Assembly: GCA_003009755.1 (NCBI GenBank)
Contig: PXUB01000040.1
Span: 1-38,862, forward strand
Direction of reading: 5' to 3'
DNA: 38,862 bases
Source of the DNA: Thermoplasmatales archaeon SW_10_69_26
GTDB taxonomy: Archaea; Thermoplasmatota; SW-10-69-26
Numbering within the stretch: the first letter of the stretch is position 1; every line of letters starts with the position of its first letter. The translations under genes were made by a program, and so were the position numbers. The notes under the pieces are model-generated. The model was not told where the DNA came from. It searched no databases and worked only from the letters and a program-made list of their open reading frames with translations. This document shows positions 20,077 to 31,757 of this stretch, one piece after another.

Positions 20077-20337
20077 TCATTCCCCGATCTTGTCGTAGAT
20101 CTCCTTGGCCTGCTCCTGGGCCTTGCCCTCGCCGACGTTCTTCTTGATCAGGACGCTTTGGACCTCCCAGTCGTCGGAGCCTTCCTTCTTGCCGGTGCGG
20201 ACCTCGGCGCCCTGCGAGACGGACTGGGCGGCGTTCTCGGCCCAGTCGGGTGTCCGGATCGTGTCGTAGTCGTCGGGGTCGTGGAACCGGACGTGCGTGT
20301 ACTCGTCCTCGGTCTCGACCTTGTCGATGCTGGCCAT
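20077..20337 (-). CDS. Conserved-looking small acidic protein (86 aa), function unknown
   Basis: It starts at the ATG at 20337 ([13 protein letters not shown]), 27 nt after a TATA-like box; a longer frame would add an unlikely Gly/Pro-rich extension. The body [21 protein letters not shown] reads like a short beta-strand domain, followed by a strand pair ending SVLIKK and a C-terminal helix ([12 protein letters not shown]). It is soluble, without cysteines or membrane segments. No family is recognised. It is monocistronic, divergent from gyrA. Confidence 0.65.
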
Positions 20338-20360
20338 GGATGCCGGTAGTCGAGGGCCCG

Positions 20361-20368
20361 GTTTCAGG
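20361..20368 (-). promoter_or_regulatory. TATA-like box of the 86-aa protein gene
   Basis: The minus strand reads cctgaaac, centred 27-28 nt before the ATG at 20337. Confidence 0.4.
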
Positions 20369-20539
20369 CACCCGCCCATCGAAGATGTACGGCCTTTCAT
20401 CCGAGCCCGTCACGGATCTCGCCGTATCGTCGGGCGTCCGTCATGGACGTTGCGTCCAACCCCGAAAGGAAGGGCCGTCTTCGGGAGGGGTGCACGGATG
20501 GCGAGGCCTCGATCCCGCGCGCACGCGCACACACGGAAG

Positions 20540-20548
20540 CTTTTATCC
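20540..20548 (+). promoter_or_regulatory. TATA box of gyrA
   Basis: cttttatcc is one of the clearest A/T boxes in the window. Initiation is expected near 20567-20572, after the in-frame ATG at 20561 but before the ATG at 20606. This favours the latter as the real start, with a leader of about 35 nt. Confidence 0.6.
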
Positions 20549-20605
20549 CAGGGGTCTTGCATGGCCCCGCAAGGCGGGGATGGGGCCTGCCTCTGTTGTG
20601 ATTCC

Positions 20606-23146
20606 ATGCCGGAGGAGATCGACGAAGACGTAGCCGAGGACCTGCCAGGCGAACCCACCGACGTCGGGGACGCCACGGTCGAGGTCACGGTCGAGGAGGA
20701 GATGCGCAGCTCGTACATCGATTACGCGATGAGCGTCATCGTCGGCCGCGCCCTCCCCGACGTCCGCGACGGCTTCAAGCCGGTGCATCGGCGCATCCTG
20801 TACGCGATGGACGACATGGGTCTCAACAGCGACGGCCCGCACCGGAAGTCGGCCCGCGTCGTGGGTGAGGTGCTCGGGAAGTACCATCCCCACGGCGACA
20901 CGGCGGCCTACGACACGCTCGTCCGCATGGCCCAGGAGTTCTCGCTGCGCTACCCGCTCGTCGACGGTCAGGGGAACTTCGGCTCGATGGACGGCGACTC
21001 CCCCGCTGCCATGCGTTACACCGAGGCTCGGTTGACGCCGATCGCCGAGGAGATGCTGGCCGACATCGACGAAGACACGGTGGACTTCACGCCGAACTTC
21101 GACGCCTCGATGGAGGAGCCCACCGTCCTCCCCGGCAAGTTGCCGAACCTGCTCGTCAACGGGTCGGCCGGGATCGCCGTCGGCATGGCCACGAACATGG
21201 CCCCGCACAACCTGGGCGAGATCGTCGACGCGCTCGTCCTCCAACTGGACGACCCGGACGTCTCCATCCAACGGCTCATGCAGGCCGTGCCGGGACCCGA
21301 TTTCCCGACCGGCGGCATCATCCAAGGCACCGGCGGCATCCAGAAGGCCTACGCAACCGGGCGCGGCATCGTCCGCATGCGAGCCCGGATGCACGAGGAG
21401 GACGAGGGCGGCCGACTGGTCGCCACCGAGATCCCCTACCAGGTCAACAAGGCCAAGCTGGCCGAGGACATCGCCCAGCTCGTCCGCGACGGCAAGCTCG
21501 AGGGCATCAGCGACCTCCGCGACGAATCCAGCCGCGAGGGCGTGCGCCTCATCATCGAGCTCAAGCGCGGCGCCAACCCCGAGATCGTCAAGAACCAATT
21601 GTTCCAGAAGACCCAGCTCCAGGACAGCTTCGGCATCAACAACGTCGCGCTCGTCGACAACGAACCCAAGGTCCTGAACCTCAAGGAGCTGCTCCAGTAC
21701 TGGATCGAGCACCGGCTCGAGGTCATCGTCCGCCGCACCCAGTACCGGCTCGACGAGGCGCTCGACCGCGCGCACATCGTCGAGGGCCTGCTCACCGCCC
21801 TTCGCAACATCGACGACGTGATCGAGACGATCCGCGCGGCCGAGGAGACGGCCGACGCCCGCGAGGCCCTCATAGCGGACTTCGAGCTCACCGAGGAGCA
21901 GGCCCGCGCCATCCTGCGCATGCGCCTGTCCCGGCTCACCCGGCTCGAGCAAGCCAAGCTCGAGGACGAGCTCGAGGGCCTGCGCGAGGACATCGAGCGC
22001 TACCGCAACATCCTCGACGACGAGGAGCGCCAACGCGGCATCATCAAGCAGGAGCTGGTCGACCTCAAGGAGGACTACGACGACGAGCGCCGCACCGAGA
22101 TCCGCGAAAGCGAGGGCCAGCTCGTCATCGAGGACCTGGTCCCCGACGACCCGGTCGTCATCCTCCGCACCGACCAGGGCTACGTCAAGCGCGTCCCGCT
22201 GGAGAAGTACCGCGTGCAGCGGCGTGGTGGCCGTGGCGTCATCGGGATGGAGACCAAGGAAGGCGACCACGTCGTGGACGTGCTCACCTGCACCAACCAC
22301 GATCGGTTGCTGTTCCTCACCGAGGAGGGGATCGCCCACGACATGAAGGCCTACCAGGTGCCCGAGGGCGACCGCTACGCCCGTGGCTCCCCGGTGCAGA
22401 GCCTCTTCGAGCGCTGGGACCCCGACACCGACGTCGAGAAGATCCTCCCCGTCGACAGCTTCGACGAGGATCGGTTCCTGTTCTTCGCCACCCGGCAAGG
22501 CAAGGTCAAGAAGACGCCCCTCGACGAGTACGAGCGCATCAACGTCAACGGCAAGATCGCCATCCGGCTCGAGGACGGCGACCGGATCGTCGACGCCACG
22601 ATCACCGACGGCGACCGCGACATCGTGCTCGTCAAGACCAGCGGCAAGGGCCTGCGCTTCCCCGAGAAGCAGGTCCGACCCATGGGCCGGGTCGCCTCCG
22701 GCGTGAAGGGCACCGAGCTACGCGGGGACGAGGAGGTCGTCGGGCTCGTCGCAATCGAGGACCCCGACGAGACGCTGCTCACCGTCACCCGCCAGGGCCA
22801 GGGCAAGCGCACGCCGTTCTCCTCCTACCGCCCGAAGAACCGCGGCGCCTGGGGCATCTACATGCACGACGTCGCGGAGGACGAGACCGGCCCGGTCGTC
22901 GCCGCCGTCGAAGCCCACGACGGCGACGAGATCGTGTTCACCTCCCGCGAGGGCGTCCTCATCCGCAGCCTCGCGGGGGACATCAGCCGCATCTCGAGCG
23001 GCCAAGCGATGGGCGTCATCGTGCAACGGCTCGAGGACGGCGACGAGACGGTCGCCGTCTCCCGGCTGACCGAGGACGAGCTCGGAGCCCTCGAGGACGC
23101 CGAGGACGAGGCCGACGCCGAAGAGGCCCCCGCCACGGAGGCCTGA
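20606..23146 (+). CDS. gyrA: DNA gyrase subunit A
   Basis: GyrA is the breakage-reunion subunit of the type IIA topoisomerase that introduces negative supercoils. The 846-aa protein contains [29 protein letters not shown], the [13 protein letters not shown] helix and the catalytic tyrosine in AMRYTEARL (Tyr138). The C-terminal pinwheel carries the GyrA box QRRGGRG (from Gln538), which separates gyrase from topoisomerase IV. It ends in an acidic tail. An in-frame ATG at 20561 would add 15 residues including three Cys, but the TATA position argues against it. gyrB is not next to it, unlike in many archaea with gyrase. Archaeal gyrase is of bacterial origin. Confidence 0.95.
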
Positions 23147-23268
23147 CACCGCCGTCGGGCCCACCCCGGGCCCCGTCCGAAACGGGGCCAGTCGCCTCCC
23201 TGGGAGACAGGATTTCGCCCCGCTTGCGAGGGTCTACCTCGAAGTTGAGGTGGGCCCAATCGGGGGTA

Positions 23269-23282
23269 CATTTATCTAAATG
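23269..23282 (+). promoter_or_regulatory. SUF operon promoter with palindromic operator candidate
   Basis: CATTTA-TC-TAAATG is a perfect 6-2-6 palindrome that contains the TATA element (tttatcta). Initiation is expected near 23300, leaving a leader of about 29 nt before the regulator ATG. A dimeric Rrf2 protein binding here would block TBP, so autoregulation by the first gene of the operon is the simplest reading. Confidence 0.6.
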
Positions 23283-23328
23283 GGACGACTCAGGTGCGAT
23301 TGCAACCTGTGCCGCCGAGGAACACCCC

Positions 23329-23834
23329 ATGTTGAGGATCTCACGCCTAACCGACTACGCCTTCATCCTCCTGGCCGAACTCGCCGAGGCCGAGGAGGGC
23401 GAGGTGCTCAGCGGGAGCACGCTCGCAGAGCGCACGCCGCTTCCGCTACCCACGGTGCGCAAGGTCCTCAAGAAGCTCGGTCAGGAAGGCCTGCTGGAAT
23501 CCCACCAGGGGGCCCACGGCGGGTACGCGCTGACGCGCTCCGCCGACGAGGTCTCGGTGACCGAGGTCATCTCCGCCATGGAGGGCCCGATCGCCGTGAC
23601 CACGTGCACGGACGCCGACGAGGTCTGCGAGATCGAGGAGGCCTGTCCGACCAGCGAGAGCTGGAAGGTCATCAACGAGGCGATCCGCGCCACGCTGGAC
23701 GAGCTGACCCTGGCCGACCTCCACGGTCCCGACACCGAGACTGTGCAGGCGGCCCTCAGCCGAGCCGGTTCCTCGGGATCCGCCCCATCACCGGGGGGAC
23801 GCTCACCTGACGATCCCCCACGGAGGTCGAACCC

Positions 23835-23838
<4 letters not shown>
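23329..23838 (+). CDS. Rrf2-family Fe-S-sensing SUF regulator
   Basis: The 169-aa product starts [19 protein letters not shown], the characteristic opening of the bacterial SUF-associated Rrf2 regulators. The winged-helix recognition region follows ([31 protein letters not shown]). Three cysteines in [19 protein letters not shown] are positioned like the cluster ligands of IscR, so it probably holds an Fe-S cluster and senses its loss. The last 15-20 residues are Ser/Pro/Arg-rich. Its TGA overlaps the sufB ATG. A longer frame upstream would pass through the promoter and is rejected. Most relatives known to me are bacterial, so transfer with the operon is likely. Confidence 0.88.
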
Positions 23839-25292
<1,454 letters not shown>

Positions 25293-25327
25293 GCAAGATC
25301 AACACCGATACCAACGAGGAATCAACC

Positions 25328-26118
<791 letters not shown>

Positions 26119-26122
<4 letters not shown>

Positions 26123-27459
26123 CCCAGACCCAGCCACAGCTCGACGTCCACCTGGCCAACCGCCGCGAGATCGAGGGCCAGCTACCGGGTTCGACCGACT
26201 GGGTCAGCGACCTCCGACGCCGCGGGCTCGAGACGTACGAGGAGGAAGGCTGGCCCACCCAGGACGAGGAGGCCTGGAAGTACACCAGCCTGCAAGCGGC
26301 GCGCGAGACCGAGTACGCCTCCCCGCTGACGCTCGACGAGGCCGACGTCTCGCGTGAGGACCTCGCGGAGTTCACCTTCGATGCAACGACGGCTCAGCTC
26401 GTGTTCGTCAACGGCCGCTACCGCGCGGACCTGTCCAACCTCGACGCCGTGCCCGAGGCCGCCACCGTGCGCCCCCTCGCGGACGTGCTCGACGAGGACC
26501 CCGGCCGCGTCCGCGGCCTGCTCGGCGAGTACGCCGAGCCCGAGGACGAGCCGCTGACCGGGCTCAACACGGCCAACTTCGCCGACGGCGCCTACGTCGA
26601 GGTGCCCGAGACCGAGGTCGTCGAGGCCCCGATCCACGTCCTCTACCTCACCACGGACGTCGGCGAACCGATCGCCGTCCACCCGCGCACCCTGATCGTC
26701 GCCCACGAGAGCAGCCAGGTCCCCGTCGTCGAGACCTACGCCGGCCTCGACGACGTCGAAGCGTTCACGAACGCCGTGACCGAGGTTTTCACGGCCAAGA
26801 ACGCGACCGTCGACCACGTCAAGCTCAACCGGGAGAGCCCCGAGACGATCCACGTCGGCACGCAGGAGTTCGAGCAGGACCGCGACAGCGTCGTCCGCTC
26901 GAACACCGTCACGTTCGGGTCCAAGCTGACCCGCAACAACGTGTACGACATGCTCGTCGGCGAAGGCATCGATGCCAACCTCAACGGGCTCTACATGGGC
27001 ACCGACGACCAGCACATCGACAACTACACCCGCATCAGGCACGACGAGCCCCACGGGGACAGCCACCAGCTGTACAAGGGCATCCTCGACGACTCGTCGC
27101 GCGGCGTGTTCCGCGGCACGATCTTCGTCAGCCCCGGCGCGCAGAAGACCGACGGCTACCAGCACAACCCGAACATGATCGTCAGCGAAGACGCGCTGGC
27201 CAACAGCGTGCCCCAGCTCGAGATCTTCGCCGACGACGTGAAGTGCAGCCACGGCTCGACGACCGGTGACGTCGACGACAAGTGGATCTTCTACCTGCGC
27301 TCGCGCGGCCTCTCGGAGGACCAGGCCCGCGATCTGATCGTCTACAGCTTCGCCGGCGAGGTCGTCGAGGACATCACGATCGAACCCGCGCGCGACACCG
27401 TGCGGGAGCTCGTGCTCGACAACCTCGACCACGGTGACGCGGTGAGGGACGCTCTATGA
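26119..27459 (+). CDS. sufD: Fe-S cluster assembly protein SufD
   Basis: SufD pairs with SufB and is needed for iron entry. The 446-aa sequence has the SufD N-terminal helical part with DEEAWKYTSLQ, a central beta-helix, and the C-terminal signatures QKTDGYQHNPNMIVSEDA and PQLEIFADDVKCSHGSTTG, whose His lies at the proposed cluster site. The family-typical FYLRSRGLSEDQARDLIVYSFAGEV ends it. It overlaps sufC at the start and sufS at its end, both through ATGA, so the whole operon appears to be translated in a coupled way. Confidence 0.96.
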
Positions 27460-28721
27460 GCGGCTCCGGCAGCGTCGTCGAACCCCCCCCCCCCGGCTCG
27501 TCCCCGCTCGACGTGGACGAGATCCGGGCTGAGTTCCCCGCCCTGGACCAGCAAGTCCACGGCCGGGACCTGGTGTACCTCGACAACGCTGCCACCGCCC
27601 ACAAACCCAACCGCGTCATCGACGCCGTGCGCGAGCACGACCGCGCGACGAACGCCAACGTCCACCGCGGCGTCCACGCCCTCAGCCAACGCGCCACCGA
27701 CGCCTTCGAGGAGGCTCGCGACACCACGCGCGCCTTCCTCGGCGCCGAGGACCCCGAGGAGATCATCTGGACCCGCGGCACGACTGAGGCGATCAACCTC
27801 GTCGCCGACGCCTGGGCCCGCCGCGAGCTGGGCCCCGACGACGAGATCGTGCTCACCGAGCTCGAGCACCACTCCAACATCGTCCCCTGGCAGCGCGTCC
27901 GAGAGGAAACCGGCGCCCGACTCCGCGTCGTCCCGATCGACGACGACGGCGCCGTCGAGATGGACGCCCTCGAGGACGCCGTCGGACCCGACACCGCGCT
28001 CGTCACGCTCGCCCACGTCTCCAACGCGCTGGGCACGGTGAACGACGTGCACGCGGCCACCGAGATCGCCCACGACGCCGACGCGCTCGCGCTCGTCGAC
28101 GGCGCCCAAGCCGTCCCGCACATGGACGTCGACGTGCAGGACATCGGGTGCGACTTCTACGCCTTCAGCGGCCACAAGGTGTACGGCCCGACCGGCATCG
28201 GCGCCCTCTACGGCCGCCGGGAGCTGCTGGAGGAGATGCAACCCTACCAGGCAGGGGGCGAGATGATTCGCCAGGTCACCTTCGAGGAGACCACCTACGC
28301 CTGCCTGCCCGCCAAGTTCGAGGCCGGCACGCCGAACATCACCGGCGCCGTCGGCCTCGGCCACGCGCTCGACTTCGTCACCGACCACGGGCGCGACAGC
28401 ATCCGAGCGCACGAGGACCGTGTCCTCTCGGCCGCCACCGAACGCCTGGCCGCGATCGACGAGGTCGAGATCCTCGGCACCGCCGAGGACAAAGCCAGCG
28501 TGCTGTCCTTCGTGATCGAGGACGTCCACCCCCACGACGTGGGCACCGTGCTCGACCGCGAAGGCGTGGCCATCCGGGCCGGCCACCACTGCACGCAACC
28601 CGTCATGGACAAGTTCGGCGTGGCCGCCACCTGCCGCGCCAGCTTCGCCATGTACAACACGGTCGAGGAGACCGAGGCCCTCGCCGACGCCGTCCGAGAG
28701 GCGATCGAGATCTTCCACTAG
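27456..28721 (+). CDS. sufS: Cysteine desulfurase SufS
   Basis: SufS takes sulfur from cysteine and passes it to SufU or SufB. The 421-aa PLP enzyme has the group II features: YLDNAATAHKP, the Schiff-base lysine in FSGHKVYGPTG (Lys241), and the persulfide cysteine in RAGHHCTQPVM (Cys379). The N-terminal 18 residues are poorly conserved and contain PPPP, encoded by a run of 12 C residues (27483-27494). Slippage there would shift the frame within the first 15 codons. The ATG at 27456 overlaps the sufD stop. Confidence 0.96.
   Translation: MSGSGSVVEPPPPGSSPLDVDEIRAEFPALDQQVHGRDLVYLDNAATAHKPNRVIDAVREHDRATNANVHRGVHALSQRATDAFEEARDTTRAFLGAEDPEEIIWTRGTTEAINLVADAWARRELGPDDEIVLTELEHHSNIVPWQRVREETGARLRVVPIDDDGAVEMDALEDAVGPDTALVTLAHVSNALGTVNDVHAATEIAHDADALALVDGAQAVPHMDVDVQDIGCDFYAFSGHKVYGPTGIGALYGRRELLEEMQPYQAGGEMIRQVTFEETTYACLPAKFEAGTPNITGAVGLGHALDFVTDHGRDSIRAHEDRVLSAATERLAAIDEVEILGTAEDKASVLSFVIEDVHPHDVGTVLDREGVAIRAGHHCTQPVMDKFGVAATCRASFAMYNTVEETEALADAVREAIEIFH
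27483..27494 (+). repeat. Homopolymer tract C12 in sufS
   Basis: This is the longest mononucleotide run I noticed in the window. It lies in codons 10-13 of sufS, and the frame is open with exactly 12 C. Confidence 0.85.
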
Positions 28722-28730
28722 AGGGACACC

Positions 28731-29186
28731 ATGGTCGACGCCACCGATCTGTACCAAGAGATCATCATGGACCACACGAAGTCCCCCCGCAACTACGAGC
28801 ACCTCGCGGACGCCGACCACGAGGCCCAGGGGGACAATCCCCTCTGCGGGGACGAGCTGACCGTCTACATCAAGCTCGACGACGGCAAGGTCACCGACGT
28901 CACGTTCGAAGCCGATGGCTGCGCCATCTCCACCGCCTCCGCCAGCGTCATGACCGAGGCCGTCGAAGGCCGCGACATCGACGACGTGGAGGAGCTCGTC
29001 GAGACGTTCAAGAACCTCGTCACCGGCGAAGAGGACGCCAACGCCATCGACCCCGCCGAACTCGGTGACCTGGCCGCCCTCCGCAACGTGCAGAACTTCC
29101 CCACAAGGGTCAAGTGCGCGACCCTCTCATGGCATACCCTGCAGGCGGCCCTCAACGGTCGCGACGAGCCCGTCACCACGGAGTGA
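28731..29186 (+). CDS. sufU: Sulfur acceptor/carrier SufU
   Basis: This 151-aa IscU-like protein receives persulfide sulfur from SufS. The three expected cysteines are present: Cys39 in NPLCGDE, Cys64 in DGCAIS and Cys129 in RVKCATLSWHTL. The 18-20-residue insertion that separates SufU from IscU is visible between about residues 82 and 118. The N-terminus (DLYQEIIMDHTKSPRNY) is canonical. A gaggg element precedes the ATG, 9 nt after the sufS stop. The pairing with a SufS directly upstream is the usual SufS-SufU unit of bacteria. Confidence 0.95.
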   Translation: MVDATDLYQEIIMDHTKSPRNYEHLADADHEAQGDNPLCGDELTVYIKLDDGKVTDVTFEADGCAISTASASVMTEAVEGRDIDDVEELVETFKNLVTGEEDANAIDPAELGDLAALRNVQNFPTRVKCATLSWHTLQAALNGRDEPVTTE

Positions 29187-29190
29187 TCGC

Positions 29191-29754
29191 ATGCGGTCCC
29201 ACAACAACACCTGGATCGAGACCGAGCGCGATGTGCCCGCGACCGTCATCCCCAGCGGGGACGACGTCACGCTGAACGAGGGCACGAAGGTGATGATCAA
29301 CCAGGAGATGGGGGACCAGTTCACGTTGCGAACCCAGCGCGGCCACCTCGTCCGCATCGAAGCCGAGGACGCCGACGCGATCGGCCGCGAGCCGCCCTCG
29401 GGCGACGACGAGACCGACGCCACCGACGAGGAGCTCGAGGGCCCGGTCGAGGACCGGGTCTGGGACAAGCTATCCGAGGTCTACGATCCCGAGATCCCGA
29501 TCGACGTCACCGAGCTGGGCCTCATCTACGAGTGCAACGTCGAGGAGAACGACGACGGCAACCACGACGTCCACGTCGAGATGACGCTCACCGCGCCCGG
29601 TTGCGGCATGGGCGACGTCATGGCCCAAGACGCCATGCAGAAGGTCGAAAGCCTCCCCGACGTCGACGCCTGCGACGTCGAGATCGTCTTCAACCCGCCC
29701 TGGACCCCCGACCGCATGAGCGACGAGGCCCGCCTCGAGCTCGGCATGATCTAA
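29191..29754 (+). CDS. sufT: SufT, DUF59/MIP18-family Fe-S maturation protein
   Basis: The 187-aa protein has two parts. The N-terminal about 70 residues (TERDVPATVIPSGDDVTLNEGT) match the region special to long-form SufT. After an acidic linker rich in Asp/Thr comes a DUF59 domain with VYDPEIPIDVTELGLIYE, then LTAPGCGMGDVM with its conserved Cys, and the end motif VFNPPWTPDRMSDEARLELGM. SufT helps deliver clusters to target enzymes. The ATG at 29191 lies 4 nt after the sufU stop, making this the last gene of the SUF operon. Confidence 0.94.
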   Translation: MRSHNNTWIETERDVPATVIPSGDDVTLNEGTKVMINQEMGDQFTLRTQRGHLVRIEAEDADAIGREPPSGDDETDATDEELEGPVEDRVWDKLSEVYDPEIPIDVTELGLIYECNVEENDDGNHDVHVEMTLTAPGCGMGDVMAQDAMQKVESLPDVDACDVEIVFNPPWTPDRMSDEARLELGMI

Positions 29755-29962: not shown

Positions 29963-29969
29963 ACTTATG
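29963..29969 (+). promoter_or_regulatory. TATA box of the subtilase gene
   Basis: acttatg is centred 28 nt before the ATG at 29994. It lies across another in-frame ATG (29967), which is thus excluded as start. Confidence 0.6.
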
Positions 29970-29993
29970 CTGGACCCGGGGAGCCTGGGGGTG

Positions 29994-31757
29994 ATGCGTC
30001 GCCGCGTCCTGCTCATCGCCTCGCTTCTCCTCCTCGCCGGCGGGACCCAGGCCGTCGGAGGCCTGGACGAGGACCCCGCCCCCGCCGAGGAGCCGGTGCT
30101 CGTCACGCTCGACACGTGGCCACCCCAACGATCGCTGATGGAGACGATGGACCACCTCGGCGTCGAGGAGCGCGAGCGCTTCGACGTGGCGCAGACGATG
30201 CTCGTCGACGCGCCGGTGACCAGCCACCGACACCTGGCGATGCATCCCTCCGTCACCGGCATCTACGCCGACGAACCCCTCGACCCCCAGCTGGCCTCCA
30301 GCAAACCGGCCGCAGGCGTGACCGAACGCCTGCACCGGGCTGGCGTGACCGGCGAGGACGTCACGGTCGCCGTCGTCGACAGCGGGATCGCGGCCGACCA
30401 TGCCGGGCTCGACGAGGAGATGGCCGGCCAGTACACCGTCGACGACGACGGCGTTCACGGCGGCGCCGACGACCCGTCCAAGCACGGGACCCACGTCGCC
30501 GGCATCCTCGTCGGCAGCGGCGAAGGCGCTGGCCCCGATCGAGGCGACGTGCGCGGCGTCGCACCGGCCGCCCAGGTCGTCTCCTTCGACATCAGCCAGG
30601 ACTTCACGACGTCGAACGCGCTGAGGGCCTTCGAGTGGATCTACGAGAACCACGAGGAGGAGGACATCGACGCCGTGACGAACGCCTGGGGCCGCCTGGA
30701 GAACCCGGCCACCTACGACCCCGACGACCCCGTCGTGCGCGCCTCGAGCGCGCTCGTCGCCGACGGCCTCGTGACCGTGTTCTCCGCCGGGAACGGCGGC
30801 GGGCAGGACAGCCGCATGACGGTCGAGGCCACCAACCCCGACGTGATCACGGTCGGCGCCGCCACCGACCAAGGCGAGATCGAGTCCTACTCCTCGCGCG
30901 GACCCGTCTACGACACCGACGGCAACCCGGTGAACTGGACCAAACCCGACCTCGTCGCCCCGGGCAGCCACGTCGTCTCCACGCAGCCCGCCGGCGAGCC
31001 CGGACCGGCCTACACCACGATGAACGGGACCAGCATGGCGGCCCCGCACGTCGCCGGCACCGTCGCCCTCGTGCTCGACCAGCGCCCCGATCTGGCGCCC
31101 GAGGAGGTCAAGAGTCTGCTCGTGCGCGCCGCCCAGGACGTGGGCCCCACCGGAGTCGACGACGCCTCCGGGGCCGGCATGGTGGACGCCGAATCCGCGA
31201 TCCGCCTCCTCGAGGAGTCCTCCGGCACGATGGAGAGCCGCCAACGCTCCAGCCAGCACTCCGAGCAGCTCACCGGACCCGCCCAGGGCGAGGCCGTGTT
31301 CGGCCAGGCCGAGATCGACAACGAGGACACGATCGAGATCGACGTCCCGGCCAACGGCACGAAGCTCGAGACCGAGATCCGCTGGGGCGGCGAGGGCGAC
31401 CTCGAGGCCAGCTTCCAGCGGCCCGACGGGTCGACGGCGCGCACGATCGATGTGAGCGCCGAGCGATCGCTGGCCATCCAAGACCCCGTCGAGGGCGAGT
31501 GGACGATCTCCGTGCAACCCCAGGACGTGTCCCGCGGCAGCTACCACGCCAACGTGACCGTCACCTGGCTGGAGCCGGTGAACGGGAGCACGGTTCCCTT
31601 CAGCGCCGAACGCTCGGCCGAGGGCACCTTCCCGTCGACCGGTGGCCCGCTGGACCCCTGGGCCGAATCCTGGCTGCCGGGCGTCCCGAACATCGCGCTC
31701 ATGGTGGCGGGGGCCGCGTTCTCGGTCACGATGCTCGTCGGCCGGATCCGACGCTGA
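29994..31757 (+). CDS. Secreted, membrane-anchored subtilisin-like serine protease (S8)
   Basis: The 587-aa protein has a signal peptide (MRRRVLLIASLLLLAGGTQA), a pro-region of about 85 residues, and a complete catalytic domain. The triad is Asp129 (VAVVDSGI), His164 (KHGTHVAG) and Ser347 (NGTSMAAPHVAG), with the oxyanion Asn267 in SAGNGGG. A beta-sandwich domain resembling a P-proprotein/PPC module follows at about 400-525, then a linker and one C-terminal membrane helix (NIALMVAGAAFSVTMLVG) with basic end. The enzyme would act outside the cell while staying attached. The first 9 codons of the longer frame are rejected because the signal peptide begins at 29994 and the TATA box overlaps them. 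Confidence 0.93.
   Translation: MRRRVLLIASLLLLAGGTQAVGGLDEDPAPAEEPVLVTLDTWPPQRSLMETMDHLGVEERERFDVAQTMLVDAPVTSHRHLAMHPSVTGIYADEPLDPQLASSKPAAGVTERLHRAGVTGEDVTVAVVDSGIAADHAGLDEEMAGQYTVDDDGVHGGADDPSKHGTHVAGILVGSGEGAGPDRGDVRGVAPAAQVVSFDISQDFTTSNALRAFEWIYENHEEEDIDAVTNAWGRLENPATYDPDDPVVRASSALVADGLVTVFSAGNGGGQDSRMTVEATNPDVITVGAATDQGEIESYSSRGPVYDTDGNPVNWTKPDLVAPGSHVVSTQPAGEPGPAYTTMNGTSMAAPHVAGTVALVLDQRPDLAPEEVKSLLVRAAQDVGPTGVDDASGAGMVDAESAIRLLEESSGTMESRQRSSQHSEQLTGPAQGEAVFGQAEIDNEDTIEIDVPANGTKLETEIRWGGEGDLEASFQRPDGSTARTIDVSAERSLAIQDPVEGEWTISVQPQDVSRGSYHANVTVTWLEPVNGSTVPFSAERSAEGTFPSTGGPLDPWAESWLPGVPNIALMVAGAAFSVTMLVGRIRR

Follow-up and report, generated by a model that had tools for sequence, protein, structure and literature searches.

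The SUF operon in the window (the whole 38,862-nucleotide stretch of DNA that was analysed) probably has an autoregulated core promoter in which an inverted repeat serves as the TATA box, the dyad at 23283–23297 is the operator of an Rrf2 regulator, and holo-Rrf2 blocks RNA polymerase. The features of this region are as follows.

23269–23282, no strand assigned: inverted repeat CATTTA-TC-TAAATG, an A/T box in register with the TATA boxes of the orthologs and read as the TATA box (TTTATCTAAA), its symmetry probably accidental
23283–23297, no strand assigned: putative Rrf2 operator GGACGACTCAGGTGC, a degenerate copy of GAC-N7-GTC that aligns with the GGAC-N7-GTCC of the orthologs, comes first by matrix score and corresponds to the core of the RisR footprint
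23317–23320, + strand: GAGG, likely ribosome-binding site, 8 nt 5′ of the ATG, read from the sequence
23329–23835, + strand: SUF-type Rrf2 regulator carrying C93, C100 and C106, matching TIGR02944 and Pfam Rrf2, its end placed by translation to the stop codon
23835–25292, + strand: SufB (NCBIfam SufB, 850 bits)
within 25016–26122: SufC-like ATPase, from a reading of the frame only
26122–29754, + strand: remainder of the SUF operon (SufD-type protein, SufS-type aminotransferase, SufU and FeS_assembly_P protein)

The host belongs to the Thermoplasmatota. The preliminary description had placed an Rrf2 gene downstream of the inverted repeat, and profile scores agree: the protein reaches 143.7 bits against TIGR02944, the SUF system Fe–S cluster assembly regulator family (cut-off 110.65), and it stands beside SUF genes as members of that family do, with SufB directly 3′ of Rrf2 in the window as well as in all nine orthologs inspected. 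It falls far below the IscR cut-off (73.8 versus 207.55 bits). The cysteines C93, C100 and C106 are invariant in a four-way alignment, the pattern of Fe–S-binding Rrf2 repressors of the IscR/RisR type. The gene for DNA gyrase subunit A (gyrA, 20297–23146) lies directly 5′ of the SUF operon on the same strand, and a subtilase-family protease (Peptidase_S8, 29967–31757) lies directly 3′ of it.

Between the end of gyrA (23146) and the Rrf2 gene lies a gap of 182 bp (23147–23328; 65% GC), and its only stretch with at least nine A/T in ten positions is the box at 23269–23282 (CATTTATCTAAATG), which ends 46 nt 5′ of the Rrf2 ATG (23329). The earlier view of this box as the only strong A/T box in a GC-rich gap is thus accurate. 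Its description as a perfect 14-nt palindrome holds for the 6-bp arms, which are fully complementary, and not for the asymmetric TC centre, which is unpaired, hence an inverted repeat whose arms flank a 2-nt spacer. By the criteria of at least 60% A/T, arms of at least 6 bp and a gap of at most 4 nt, it is the sole such repeat in the window, and a 418-kb genome sample (20 stretches totalling 379 kb, plus the window) yielded five entries representing four different sequences. Such a repeat arises in 2–3% of simulated or shuffled A/T boxes of equal size and is found in one of the 27 real A/T boxes of the sample; a 6-bp-arm inverted repeat of any kind appears somewhere in the gap in 27% of gap shuffles. 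The symmetry is above chance for this location, yet not compelling. With its centre left free, the 14-mer has a single copy in the 2.82-Mb genome even when one mismatch is allowed, and the inverted repeat was consequently rejected as a regulon motif, the use for which a genome scan had been suggested.

Nineteen Thermoplasmatota genomes, the window's included, encode a TIGR02944 protein above the cut-off, and for comparison we examined the 18 others. The sole same-family relative among them is G001, whose Rrf2 is 60% identical to that of the window; a contig search with the window Rrf2 protein alone returned two loci, one of them G001. In the G001 counterpart (CCTTTATCAAAATG), two of the six pairs (pairs 2 and 6) are broken and the TTTATC.AAA TATA core is kept. 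This is the outcome that the preliminary description had itself set against its proposal, since the symmetry is lost and the TATA core stays. None of the 18 other orthologous promoters, G001 included, carries the intact inverted repeat. On these grounds of conservation we rejected the inverted repeat as the operator, and 23269–23282 is best read as a TATA box whose symmetry is probably accidental.

What is conserved at these promoters is a different dyad. Directly 3′ of the TATA box, GGAC-N7-GTCC is present in G001 (AGACCGCTCAAGTCC), G003 (GGACCGCTTTTGTCC) and family f6 (GGACTAATTTGGTCC and variants). An exact GAC-N7-GTC occurs in 10 of the 18 orthologs (shuffle P between 0.001 and 0.019 for each), six more carry it with one mismatch (5/6 letters) and the G008 copy keeps 4/6, counts that come from only about five independent lineages (G001, G003, g65, g9 and G399), many of the f6 sequences being closely related. 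In the G399 dyad (GTATTAATTTAATAC; locus L049) two pairs are altered on both sides, giving a doubly compensated variant in which both half-sites have changed symmetrically relative to GGACTAATTTGGTCC; it lies 26 nt 5′ of the Rrf2 start, inside a perfect inverted repeat with 11-bp arms.

In the f6 genomes the perfect site is essentially confined to the Rrf2–SUF promoter, so the circuit looks like single-operon feedback. A second perfect operator copy was seen in G393 (C18, 9818–9832), 5′ of a 69-aa partial Rrf2 frame, and may reflect a duplicate strain contig in the assembly. At the f6 loci L012, L016, L017, L018, L046 and L049, the Rrf2–SUF operon is divergent from one of two genes: nadA, which encodes the Fe–S quinolinate synthase, or, where the genome belongs to genus g9 of f6, an A-type Fe–S carrier gene. 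The same f6 loci hold a second conserved TATA-like block (GATATAAATTTAATGTT) in the opposite orientation, and the f6 operator may serve both divergent directions.

The window's own copy of the dyad is imperfect. It has five of the six core letters (one mismatch) and weak outer symmetry, and taken by itself gives a shuffle P of 0.29. Scored with a lineage-weighted matrix built from the other 18 orthologs, the window left out, position 23283 ranks first of 168 positions in the 182-bp gap, and a fraction of 1.6 × 10⁻⁴ of positions in the 418-kb sample score at least as high. Over the TATA box and operator the window is 67–80% identical to G001, a value that drops to about 20% in both flanks. The GTGC end of the window dyad is also found in f6 genus g9. 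The window copy, though imperfect, is probably functional and bound by Rrf2.

The proposal that CATTTA-TC-TAAATG is itself the target of an Rrf2 dimer, which would thereby keep TBP away, perhaps after the operator had moved onto the TATA box and the old GAC-N7-GTC had decayed, draws on the perfect 6-bp arms in a GC-rich gap, on the single genomic copy and on the imperfection of the window's downstream site. We consider it unlikely: G001 has broken the symmetry and kept the TATA core, the other orthologs do not have the repeat, and such symmetry arises by chance in the 2–3% of A/T boxes given above. Its half-sites are also unlike GAC…GTC, and its centre is 14.5 bp from that of the conserved dyad.

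The dyad proposed here as the Rrf2 operator closely resembles a bacterial site. The Myxococcus xanthus Rrf2 protein RisR (IS6 subgroup), which represses suf and isc, has the footprint T(t/g)GAC-N7-GTCC(t/a) (PMC9973013), and the match is independent, because the archaeal dyad was extracted before the RisR motif was read. Like the window protein, RisR is a three-cysteine Rrf2 repressor encoded by the first gene before suf genes, and its GAC-N7-GTC operator, exact in the 10 archaeal orthologs above and 5/6 in the window, overlies the core promoter (PMC9973013). RisR differs in acting at bacterial −35/−10 promoters of two operons (isc and suf), as against one operon with a TATA promoter in the window. 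Among tested motifs that of RisR comes closest, but the archaeal proteins do not have the recognition helices of the bacterial ones, which counts against the proposed operator. Covariation between this helix and the site (A in G399 versus mostly R/K) was not counted, since G081 has N and an unchanged site.

A second likeness is to the IscR type-1 site of gamma-proteobacteria, whose Escherichia coli core, GACTRWWWYAGTC (PMC3899308), matches GACTAATTTAGTC of G081 letter for letter; in IscR, as proposed for the window, the cluster-loaded form feedback-represses an Fe–S assembly operon. The window differs in the low IscR score of its Rrf2, in which E43 is not conserved, and in the poor match of its copy to the type-1 core. 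The same core is matched letter for letter by GACTGATTTAGTC, upstream of an Ignavibacteria Rrf2 gene followed by SufB (L010). At 2976–2989 the upstream region of L010 holds AATAGGACTGATTTAGTC, nearly the same string as archaeal TATATAGGACTGATTTAGTGC. Among bacterial Rrf2 genes with a SufB/SufS-like neighbour, all seven have an exact site no more than about 100 nt away (60 nt or less in six, −89 in L100), versus 1 of the remaining 24 bacterial Rrf2 genes in the sample within 60 nt; these 24 include L072, whose exact match is more distant (−126).

These bacterial sites also bear on the reading of the conserved block 3′ of the TATA box as a core-promoter or initiation feature and not an operator. 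The block closely accompanies the TATA box in every ortholog, as such a feature would, but its dyad symmetry and the compensated variant of G399 are poorly accounted for, and it stands before Rrf2 genes of bacteria, which have no TATA/TFB system. It is also absent from promoters of SufB genes that lack this regulator, for example L102: in Thermoplasmatota, 0 of 10 such genes have an exact site within 200 nt upstream, a set in which several are operon-internal and few are true promoters. A core-promoter role is for these reasons quite improbable. We regard it as very improbable that the inverted repeat is bound by some other dimeric protein, such as a metal or redox repressor from a different family, in concert with Rrf2 at the downstream site, since, for all its exact symmetry in an A/T box, it has no second genomic copy at up to one mismatch and no conservation.

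For the preferred arrangement, with the TATA box at the inverted repeat and the Rrf2 operator at 23283–23297, the position of the dyad suggests how repression might operate. If TTTATCTA is the TATA box, transcription would presumably start near 23301, given the general archaeal spacing, and the dyad would therefore span about −18 to −4. When Fe–S clusters are ample, a cluster-loaded Rrf2 dimer would occupy the DNA that separates the TATA box from the start site and prevent RNA polymerase from being recruited to TBP/TFB; the footprint of the dimer may also encroach on the 3′ part of the TATA box. On cluster loss, through oxidation or iron shortage, apo-Rrf2 would leave and the operon would be expressed. 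Cluster dependence is suggested by the three cysteines and by analogy to RisR and IscR. Since the dyad borders the TATA box downstream, an RNA polymerase block fits better than the pure TBP exclusion put forward previously, although competition with TBP is possible because a RisR-like footprint of about 30 bp would extend into the TATA box at its 3′ end.

There is an archaeal parallel for such a block. LrpA of Pyrococcus furiosus, which represses its own gene from a site adjoining the TATA box on the downstream side, is reported to block RNA polymerase, with TBP/TFB able to stay bound (PMC2995911). LrpA differs in belonging to the Lrp family and not to the Rrf2 Fe–S proteins, and for the window a similar mechanism is suggested by position only.

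The original observation was right, and the site first named is most likely only the TATA box. Autorepression by Rrf2 at an archaeal promoter survives as an idea, now tied to another site that has more support. What carries the idea is a SUF-type Rrf2 heading the SUF operon and a conserved dyad, suited to a dimer, at the TATA box; TBP exclusion as the blocked step probably does not survive.

Archaeal Rrf2 proteins form one clade in a small Rrf2 tree with long branches. We tentatively suggest that an Fe–S-sensing repressor was transferred together with its operator between bacteria and archaea and that the pair was adapted from a bacterial promoter to a TATA box, after which site and protein would have co-evolved within the archaea, as the compensated variant of G399 may reflect; this scenario is somewhat less likely to be right than wrong. 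If true, a single operator sequence is effective against transcription machineries of two unrelated kinds.

In the open literature searched, we found no experimentally studied archaeal Rrf2 regulator, and a RisR survey contained five archaeal sequences among 641 Rrf2 proteins (PMC9973013). Judged from sequence, it looks as though a feedback switch of bacterial style has been added by an archaeon to a eukaryote-like promoter of its own. With a site common to bacterial and archaeal SUF promoters, archaeal Fe–S feedback can be put to a direct test by mutating a precisely defined sequence, and the case shows how a bacterial-type repressor can fit a TBP/TFB promoter.
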